A stretch of 64,000 nucleotides of DNA from contig NZ_CP125947.1 in the NCBI RefSeq assembly GCF_030064165.1, positions 1,364,001-1,428,000 of the forward strand, written 5' to 3'. The DNA comes from Comamonas resistens. GTDB taxonomy: Bacteria; Pseudomonadota; Gammaproteobacteria; Burkholderiales; Burkholderiaceae_C. Position 1 is the first letter of the stretch, and each line of letters begins with the position of its first letter. The notes under the pieces were generated by a model. It had not been told where the DNA came from. It did not search any database and saw nothing but the letters and a program-made list of their open reading frames with translations. The translations under genes were made by a program, and so were the position numbers. Shown piece after piece: positions 18,011 through 43,447 of the stretch.

Positions 18011-18043
18011 ATTGAGTCGCCTGACAGGCGCAATCTGAAAAAC

Positions 18044-18119
18044 GACTTACGCAAATGAGGATCAAGCTGGTGCTTTGCCTCAAGGAAACTGCCTTCGTGC
18101 ATCCCTGTTTGCGTAAGTC
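18044..18119 (+). repeat. Miniature inverted-repeat element, copy 1 (GACTTACGCAAA termini)
   Basis: A 76-base element bounded by GACTTACGCAAA (18044-18055) and its exact reverse complement TTTGCGTAAGTC (18108-18119). The interior shares TGAGGATCAAGC and CTTCGTGCATCC-like blocks with copy 2 at 25750 and, inverted, CTCAAGG with copy 3 at 43194. It sits between the transglycosylase and parC genes and ends 23 bases before the parC ATG. The termini can pair to make a stem of 12 base pairs in RNA. Confidence 0.85.
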
Positions 18120-18142
18120 CTATGAAAAACTACAAAGAATTC

Positions 18143-20533
18143 ATGAGCGATCAAACCATACTGGATTTGTCTCAACAAGCCTCTGGCGAGGCGCTGGATC
18201 TGGGTCAATACGCACAGCGCGCCTACCTCGAATACGCTTTATCGGTGGTCAAGGGCCGTGCCCTGCCCGATGTCAGCGATGGCTTGAAGCCCGTGCAGCG
18301 CCGCATTCTCTACGCCATGGACCGCATGGGCCTGGGCTACAGCGGCCCGAACGGCAACACGGCGGCCAAGCCGGTCAAGAGCGCGCGCGTGGTCGGCGAC
18401 GTGCTGGGCCGCTTTCATCCGCACGGCGACCAGTCGGCCTATGACGCGCTGGTGCGCATGGCGCAGGACTTCAACCAGCGCTATCCGCTGGTCGACGGCC
18501 AGGGTAACTTCGGCAGCCGCGACGGCGACGGCGCAGCGGCCATGCGTTATACCGAGGCACGCCTGTCCAAGATCACCGGCCTGCTGCTCGATGAAATCGA
18601 TATGGGAACGGTGGACTTCGTCCCCAACTACGACGGCAGCACCCAGGAGCCCAAGCAGCTTCCGGCTCGTCTGCCGTTCTCGCTGCTCAATGGTGCCAGC
18701 GGCATTGCCGTGGGTCTGGCCACCGAAATCCCCAGCCACAATCTGCCCGAAGTGGCTGCAGCCTGCGTGGCCCTGATCAAGAAGCCGCAGCTGCCCGAGG
18801 AAGAGCTGCTGGCGTTGATTCCCGGCCCAGACTATCCGGGCGGCGGCCAGATCATCTCCTCCAGCAGCGATATTGCCGATGCCTACCGCACGGGCCGCGG
18901 CAGTCTCAAGGTGCGCGCGCGCTGGAAGATCGAAGAGCTGGCACGCGGCCAGTGGCAATTGGTGGTGACCGAGCTGCCGCCCGGCGTGTCGGCCCAGAAG
19001 GTGCTCGAGGAGATCGAGGACATCACCAATCCCAAGGTCAAGACCGGCAAGAAGGCGCTGAGCCAGGAGCAGACCCAGCTCAAGGCCAGCATGCTGGCCG
19101 TGCTGGACTGCGTGCGCGACGAGTCGAGCAAGGATGCGCCCGTGCGCATCGTGTTCGAACCCAAGACCGGCAAGATTCCTCAGTCGGAGCTGATCACGGC
19201 GCTGCTGGCCCACACCAGCCTGGAGTCGTCGAGCTCCATCAATCTGACCAGCATCGGCCTCGATGGCCGCCCGGTGCAGAAGTCGCTGCGCCAGATGCTG
19301 GAGGAATGGATTGCCTTCCGCTTCCAGACCGTGACGCGGCGCAGCCAGCATCGGCTGGAGAAGGTGCTCGATCGCATCCACATCCTCGAAGGCCGTCAGG
19401 CCGTGCTGCTCAATATCGACAAGGTCATTGCCATCATCCGCGCCAGCGATGAACCCAAGCAGGCCCTGATTGATGCCTTCAATCTCTCCGAGCGTCAGGC
19501 CGAGGACATTCTGGAAATCCGTCTGCGCCAACTGGCGCGGCTGGAGGCCATCAAGATCGAGCAGGAGCTCAAGGAGCTGCGCAGCGAGCAGGGCAAGCTG
19601 GAAGACATCCTGGGCAGCGAAGCCACCATGCGCCGCCTGATCTGCAAGGAAATCGAGCAGGACACCAAGACCTTTGGTGATGCACGCCGTACGCTGATCC
19701 ACGAGGAGAAAAAGGTGGTGGCCGAGGTCAAGGTGGTGGATGAACCCACCACGGTCATCATTTCCGAAAAGGGCTGGGTGCGCACGCGCCAGGGCCATGG
19801 CGTGGATGCCAATACGCTGAGCTTCAAGGCCGGCGACAGCCTCTATGGCACGTTCGAGTGCCGCACCGTCGATCAACTGCTGGCCTTTGGCAGCAACGGC
19901 CGGGTCTATTCGGTGCCGGTATCGGCCCTGCCAGGCGGACGCGGTGATGGCCAGCCCGTGACCACGATGATCGAACTCGAAGCCGGTACCCAGCTGCTGT
20001 ACTACTTTGCCGGCAGCGAAAGCACGCAGCTTCTGCTATCTGGCTCGGGTGCCTACGGCTTCACGGCGAACGTGGGCGATATGGTCTCGCGCCAGAAGGC
20101 CGGCAAGGCCTTTGTCACGCTGGGCGAGAGCGAGACCCTGTGTGCGCCTTCGGTTGTGCATGGCGTGCCCATGAATGCGCGCGCCGAGTATGTGGAAGGC
20201 GGCGAGCAGGGGGCCGGTTTGCTGAACCCCGCCAGCCATGTGATCTGCGCCTCGGTGGGCGGTCGCATTCTGACCTTCGAGATCGCCGAGCTCAAGGCCA
20301 TGCCCAAGGGCGGGCGCGGCCTGATGCTGATTAGTCTGGAAGACAAGGATCAGCTGGCCGGCGCGGCCGCCTATACGCGCAGCATTCGCCTGGATGGCGT
20401 GGGGCGTGGCGGCAAGGCGCGTACCGAGACGCTGGAGATCCGCAGCCTCAACAATGCCCGCGGCAACCGCGGCCGCAAGGGTAAGGCCGCAGACCTGGGT
20501 TTCAAGCCTCAGTCCGTGACTCGCGTGGAATAA
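18143..20533 (+). CDS. parC: DNA topoisomerase IV subunit A (ParC)
   Basis: DNA-cleaving subunit of topoisomerase IV, 796 residues. The winged-helix/tower breakage domain has the active-site Tyr136 in [13 protein letters not shown]-terminal beta-pinwheel repeats follow (from about residue 500), less regular than in GyrA, as expected for ParC. In the quinolone-determining loop the sequence is [10 protein letters not shown], so Q97 occupies the place of E. coli ParC Ser80 and D101 that of Glu84. The start at 18143 (MSDQTILDL) is preferred to an ATG at 18122, which is only 3 bases after the repeat element. A terminator follows. Confidence 0.95.
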
Positions 20534-25713: not shown

Positions 25714-25749
25714 GACGGGCTCCAAAAGTGCGGGAATGAAAGATGGCAC

Positions 25750-25841
25750 GACTTACGTAAATCAGGTTCAAGCAAGAAATTTTTCCGATGGGAGCGCTTC
25801 TTGTGCATCCGCAGCGGCGGCCCGGCTTGTTTGCGTAAGTC
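25750..25841 (+). repeat. Miniature inverted-repeat element, copy 2
   Basis: A 92-base element bounded by GACTTACGTAAA (25750-25761, one change from copy 1) and TTTGCGTAAGTC (25830-25841). The interior begins TCAGGTTCAAGCAAG, nearly identical to the inverted copy 3, and later has CTTCTTGTGCATCC, as in copy 1. It is about 16 bases longer than the other copies. It lies just upstream of the ridA start and between ridA and comEC, which diverge here. Confidence 0.85.
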
Positions 25842-25989
25842 CTAGATGGTCGAGTTTGACACAGGCCCGAGCCGGCACGCTCCAATTCGCACACTGCATG
25901 GGCCTTGTCTGGCCTTGCGCCAACATGCCAGCACGCAGGCAGGGATAGCCGCAGTGCGGGGCACGGGATCGCCCCTCTAGCATGGCGGG

Positions 25990-43172: not shown

Positions 43173-43193
43173 GAAGTCCTGACAAAGATATGG

Positions 43194-43268
43194 GACTTAC
43201 GCAAACAAGGGTGAGCAGGAATGCTGCCTTGAGCTGCAGCGCTTGCCTGAACCTGATTTGCGTAAGTC
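43194..43268 (-). repeat. Miniature inverted-repeat element, copy 3
   Basis: A 75-base element bounded by GACTTACGCAAA (43194-43205) and TTTGCGTAAGTC (43257-43268). Read on the minus strand its interior begins TCAGGTTCAGGCAAG, one base different from copy 2 over 15 positions, so this copy is inserted in the opposite orientation. It lies just upstream of the DUF2798 gene. Confidence 0.85.
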
Positions 43269-43447
43269 GTGAGATTCGCATTCATATTCATAGCGGATGG
43301 CACAGCCTCATAAACGGCTGTAGCTGAAAACATGAATGACTGAAGAGCCCGAACTGTAAGCGCTGCTTCGGGCTGTCGGTAGAGGCCTGGAGCTTGCTGC
43401 ACTCATAAGCAGAACTTGCGAATGCGATTGGGGATACATTCGCAGTC

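Follow-up and report, generated by a model that had tools for sequence, protein, structure and literature searches.

An apparently mobile MITE family with IS701-type ends in Comamonas resistens

Three short, similar inverted repeats lie within 26 kb of each other in a 64,000-nucleotide stretch of the Comamonas resistens genome (the window; NZ_CP125947.1, positions 1,364,001 to 1,428,000), raising the question of whether they belong to a mobile family and, if so, what moves it. The initial annotation described elements of 76, 92 and 75 bases that share 12-base termini, with one base differing in copy 2 and with copies in both orientations. All six 12-mers are present where it placed them, and the sole mismatch among them is in the left end of copy 2 (GACTTACGTAAA); copies 1 and 2 read on the + strand and copy 3 on the - strand. 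With up to two mismatches allowed, the window contains six matches to the 12-mer ends against a shuffled mean of 2.24 (six were reached in 1 of 100 shuffles), and all six sort into the three element pairs. The positions were right, but each end had been drawn 3 bases short: the position of a 5-bp duplication moves the ends outward by that amount, giving lengths of 82, 98 and 81 bp. The features of the window, in its own coordinates, are then the following.

18036-18040: left target-site duplication of copy 1, TGAAA, present as a single copy in the congener G797 (locus L482).
18041-18122, + strand: copy 1, a MITE of the short form, 82 bp, covariance model 90.4 bits; left end AAC-GACTTACGCAAA at 18041-18055, right end TTTGCGTAAGTC-CTA at 18108-18122.
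18123-18127: right target-site duplication of copy 1, TGAAA.
25742-25746: left target-site duplication of copy 2, GATGG.
25747-25844, + strand: copy 2, a MITE of the long form, 98 bp, covariance model 84.2 bits.
25811-25826, + strand: the extra 16-bp GC-rich unit of the long form (GCAGCGGCGGCCCGGC) in copy 2, from the alignment and element lengths.
25845-25849: right target-site duplication of copy 2, GATGG.
43186-43190: target-site duplication of copy 3, AGATA.
43191-43271, - strand (opposite orientation): copy 3, a MITE of the short form, 81 bp, covariance model 82.2 bits.
43272-43276: target-site duplication of copy 3, AGATT, a 4/5 match to AGATA.

The annotation had named few further copies, or interiors that do not align, as the outcome that would speak against a family; the opposite was found. 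The genome-wide search for paired ends that it proposed, run as GACTTACGYAAA-N{38,68}-TTTRCGTAAGTC on the window's genome (G000, 5.30 Mb in 3 contigs), returns 22 copies, and its reversed-pattern control returns none. A covariance model gives 135 matches at E<=0.01, of which 22 are the same places read from the other strand, leaving 113 distinct places, every one of them on contig C1; this count is a lower bound, since scoring reached only 150 of the 2528 candidates from the first look. Exact end 12-mers fall within these places in 85 of 86 cases, the exception being at 2076712. Both the alignment (A1) and the model (R1) were made from 24 of a first set of 32 copies, picked by end matches (up to two substitutions) in 35 loci; the omitted copies were one each from L047, L054, L056, L050, L052 and L065 and one of the two copies in each of L005 and L014.

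In the oriented alignment the ends are 15 bp long, YAC-GACTTACGCAAA on the left and TTTGCGTAAGTC-CTR on the right (YAG-GACTTACGCAAA when read inward). The left-end triplet is usually YAC, with CAC in 59 and TAC in 22 of the 113 copies. Lengths cluster at 81-85 bp (83 copies), 98-99 bp (14) and 113-115 bp (6), with eight copies at 53-80 bp and two at 94 and 104 bp; the steps correspond to one or two extra copies of the 16-bp GC-rich unit close to the right end. At 53-115 bp, none of the 113 places has the capacity to encode a transposase, and the copies carry the terminal inverted repeats that define a MITE. The majority base is most uniform in the outer columns (mostly 83-98%) and least so in the middle 30 or so (35-92%), although scoring by the model favors the ends in any case. 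Nearest-neighbor identity among the 113 copies has a median of 0.865 and a maximum of 0.963, values that give no hint of a very recent burst.

Mobility is evidenced by both target-site duplications and empty sites. The 5 bases ahead of YAC equal the 5 bases behind CTR; among the first 32 copies, 16 match at all five positions and 27 at four or more, and the per-base match is 23-28 of 32 within the five positions and near the shuffled level on either side. Across all 113 places the duplication is complete in 47 and matches at four of five positions in 29, a combined 76 of 113, whereas 2000 shuffled pairings averaged 4.3 and never exceeded 12; in the other 37 copies it falls below four of five. 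The target-site duplication is exactly 5 bp.

The check for empty sites in relatives, also suggested by the annotation, was informative for all three window copies. The congener G797, which has family copies at other sites, lacks each of them, and the window flanks, joined with a single target copy, align to it at all three sites. Identity across the copy 1 site is 98.6% without gaps, across the copy 2 site (L659) 83.8% with 2 gap positions, and across the copy 3 site (L629) 81.8% with 3 gap positions. Relatives with an empty site number 14 of 28 for copy 1, 4 of 29 for copy 2 (three in addition to G797) and 2 of 28 for copy 3, and the remainder fail to align across the junction; the second relative for copy 3 (L632) aligns at just 72% identity with 12 gaps. 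In a 30-locus alignment, copy 1 is present only in G000 and G128. Among the matches listed, 14 or more of the 52 congeners carry copies of the family. The claim that these are not chance palindromes is thereby borne out by their number, their duplications and the empty sites in a congener. Judged from sequence, the repeat is a MITE and neither a REP nor a chance palindrome, because it has a 5-bp target-site duplication and its sites are empty in a congener.

The ends also point to the likely driver. The end YAGGACTTACGCA bounds insertion sequences with IS701-family transposases, of which five with two ends were found, three of them with a perfect 5-bp duplication. A class-level search for YASGACTTACGCAAAR matched 10 of 370 genomes. 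Of the nine other end-bearing genomes of that search, six gave no IS701_2 match at E<=1e-5 and two (G279 and G568) a partial or weak one; the only full match is in G536. There, a 1189-bp insertion sequence with CAGGACTTACGCAAAAC ends and a TGAAT/TGAAT duplication encodes a 374-aa DDE transposase that scores 376.7 bits against NCBIfam NF049921 (transpos_IS701_2, cutoff 250).

The same transposase type occurs in the bacterial family of the window: a 399-genome sample contains matches to the G536 transposase (E<=1e-20) in 8 genomes, 7 of them over the cutoff. Among the 13 matching loci, 11 have an exact YAGGACTTACGC end, one has an end with one mismatch, and one has none. Both ends are found at four loci, with perfect 5-bp duplications at L467 and L475 and matches of 3/5 at L468 and 2/5 at L472. 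The perfect duplication at L475 (AAAAA) falls in an A-run, and the transposase there carries a stop; that of L467 (in G168) scores 394.9 bits.

The annotation's suggestion to look for a transposase with the same terminal repeats was thus productive in other genomes, where IS701-family elements were found, but not in G000 itself. At E<=1e-5, no IS701_2 transposase was detected in G000, G128, G219, G135 or G222, nor in any of the 53 genus genomes (G000 and 52 congeners). Comparison of the MITE interior with 14 insertion sequence loci gave no real similarity, the one 11-base match (E=0.42) being at chance level, so that descent of the interior from such an insertion sequence by deletion is not supported, and the left end differs at its third base, YAC in the MITE versus YAG on the insertion sequence ends seen.

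Taken together, the ends and the duplication suggest IS701-type mobilization in trans, with the exact partner not found in the genomes searched. Very probably, this is a MITE family with IS701-type ends that an IS701-family transposase mobilizes in trans, and such an enzyme is the likely driver. In the proposed pathway, an IS701-family transposase of the transpos_IS701_2 group would recognize the 15-bp ends, cut at both and insert the MITE at a staggered 5-bp target. This transposase would have visited the genus on elements lost since, as the search of 53 genus genomes yielded none.

Like the IS701 insertion sequences of the NF049921 group, the element has YAGGACTTACGCA ends, and the two-ended insertion sequences in G536 and G168 share its perfect 5-bp duplications. 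Unlike them, with transposases of about 345-375 aa in 1.08-1.19 kb, it is 81-115 bp long, encodes no transposase and has a YAC left end. ISTth8 of IS701 is listed with a 4-bp duplication (PMC6352166), so 5 bp is not universal among IS701 elements. Other MITEs are described alongside insertion sequences, for example MITEPye1 with IS1182 and, in cyanobacteria, Nezha with ISNpu3-like elements (PMC11578231, PMC3049150). As far as those accounts go, they share with the present element a short, non-coding structure, inverted ends, a target duplication and ends in common with an insertion sequence, whereas the driver of MITEPye1, IS1182, is a different one. Among the titles and abstracts listed in literature searches, none is recognizable as describing this family, ISfinder and most subscription journals being outside that coverage. 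On the sequence evidence it is a real, mobile MITE family of the IS701 type, for which these searches turned up no name.

The ends extend well beyond the genus. In a 250-genome sample of the bacterial family, exact paired ends occur in 4 genomes (2 of 141 genera), a strict pattern that misses most copies. Across named genomes, the paired pattern finds at least 118 stretches, in Comamonas testosteroni, Extensimonas, Acidovorax, many Nostoc and other cyanobacteria, Undibacterium, Legionella brunensis and others. Among the matches listed are 108 distinct paired elements, after removal of duplicate sequences and of elements within 8 bases of a contig end; the duplication at the same offset is 5/5 in 66, 4/5 in 18 and less in 24.

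Scoring against the G000 model, which covered 36 of the at least 118 loci, separates two groups. Scores of 51-83 bits are reached by paired elements from Comamonas, Extensimonas, Acidovorax and three MAGs labeled as Burkholderiaceae, Burkholderiales and Azonexus, the highest being that of the Azonexus MAG (L586), where contamination is possible. The remaining paired elements, including those of Undibacterium, score about 27-36 bits; at L543, a neighboring copy scores 43 bits. The short elements of cyanobacteria, Undibacterium and Legionella brunensis have the same 12-base ends, mostly with YAG outside and mostly with a 5-bp duplication, but their interiors are dissimilar to that of the G000 element. 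One 82-bp copy had no match in plasmid or phage collections, which may omit records of this genome. Near-perfect hairpins lie between the 12-base ends of two elements, one of 64 bp in a Hymenobacter MAG (L531, 18-81) with a 3/5 duplication and one of 68 bp (L592) with a perfect 5-bp duplication.

Copy 1 is just upstream of parC (TIGR01062, 726.7 bits, cutoff 628.9), and the gene preceding it has lytic-transglycosylase matches below their cutoffs. Copy 2 is upstream of comEC (TIGR00361, 298.1 bits, cutoff 190.05). Copy 3 is upstream of a gene matching LysR-type regulators, the matches shown all being below cutoffs. Among the 30 best-scoring of the 113 sites, 22 are outside called genes, against 81% of the window called coding by the same crude, codon-weighted caller, chosen for this high-GC genome. 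The other eight are called inside genes, and some of these look like gene borders at intact loci: at one, gpsA ends and dnaB starts at the element, and at another an entire xdhC match lies beside it. At L087, the element is apparently truly inside a gene, which encodes a YoaA-like helicase. The sites examined are mostly intergenic and can be explained without invoking a host function. At copy 1, the last base of the element and the target duplication together form an in-frame ATG 21 bases upstream of the parC ATG at 18143 (18119-18145); insertion may have given parC a longer start (ORF 18122-20533).

Such a distribution would also suit a regulatory RNA or terminator that selection conserves at gene borders. 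The ends can form a 16-pair stem in which 95.8% of alignment cells are paired, against at most 47.5% in slid versions, although inverted ends imply such pairing in any case. Covariation does not exceed that of shuffles (14 further pair types versus a mean of 13.9) and the window has no Rfam match, which lends a structured RNA no support; with the orthologous sites empty in congeners as well, an immobile element of this kind is hardly credible. A REP- or BIME-type repeat spread by a RAYT (IS200/IS605-like) transposase would likewise be palindromic, present in more than 100 copies and, at the 30 sites examined, mostly outside genes. Single-strand insertion by IS200/IS605 elements is not expected to duplicate the target, in conflict with the 5 bp found here, and two distant ends in an element mostly 81-115 bp long fit such a repeat poorly. 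REPs are described as palindromes of 20-40 bp tagged GTAG or CGTC (PMC3733652), and the consensus ends have neither tag. This origin is very improbable. The annotation had left the choice between a mobile and a REP-like family open; mobility stands, on the duplications, the empty sites and the at least 113 copies, and the REP-like alternative falls with the missing 20-40 bp tagged palindrome.

A closer competitor accepts the MITE and changes its driver: a transposase of another family, as yet unseen, could share these ends, the IS701 likeness being convergent or partial. It would account for the 53 genus genomes devoid of an IS701_2 match, for a YAC left end one base away from the insertion sequence ends and for an interior not common to the 14 insertion sequence loci tested. 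Against it stand the end match of 12-13 bases at 11 of 13 IS701_2 loci in the same bacterial family, as well as in G536, and the same 5-bp duplication on three of five two-ended insertion sequences. We regard this alternative as unlikely.

Under the preferred reading, of IS701-type mobilization in trans, the family looks orphaned, because no matching IS701_2 transposase was found at E<=1e-5 in G000 or its 52 congeners. Tentatively, and with rather less confidence than we place in the driver, the element may be an orphan MITE with at least 113 copies; it also occurs in further species of the genus, Extensimonas and Acidovorax have elements of related interior, and no resident matching transposase was found in the genus genomes examined. 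If so, only visiting IS701-type elements, or else an unrelated host transposase, would move it, its copies would document passing visits of a transposase, and the 15-bp end would be a signal recognized across phyla, from cyanobacteria to Burkholderiales. The orphan state and this cross-phylum end signal are the main points of interest. With defined ends, empty sites and no resident transposase found, the family offers a clean system for studying how a MITE persists when it lacks an autonomous partner. Insertion sequences and short elements in several phyla share the end signal, which makes trans-mobilization between distant hosts testable. A common repeat of the genus and its relatives, with copies adjoining parC and comEC, now has exact boundaries, a duplication length and a likely driver.

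Several candidates for a full-length partner were set aside. Ends 1.26 kb apart at G000:C1:1473336-1474594 belong to two MITEs around hpnC and enclose no transposase; the arrangement (L046, G000:C1:1473333-1474597), in which same-orientation copies flank hpnC (TIGR03464, 316.8 bits), is composite-like. A tandem pair at G000:C1:1214722-1214890 is separated by a spacer of only 5 bp that serves as target duplication for both copies. Viral contigs L195 (3400-4823) and L205 share a 1418-bp stretch with similar ends, which in L195 encloses a 245-aa ORF, but it has no target duplication. In Extensimonas vulgaris (G222), the ends in 20 stretches bound short elements, except for a one-ended half and a degraded far end. 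Of 17 sites there considered as insertion sequence ends, 16 run to a second end (degraded at L070) and L076 is the one-ended half. Among the 16, L080 holds another insertion: at 1596-1837 a MITE copy is apparently split by a short inverted-repeat element starting GGAGCCTGTCGGACTTTGGA, seemingly at CTAG, as in a nested insertion.
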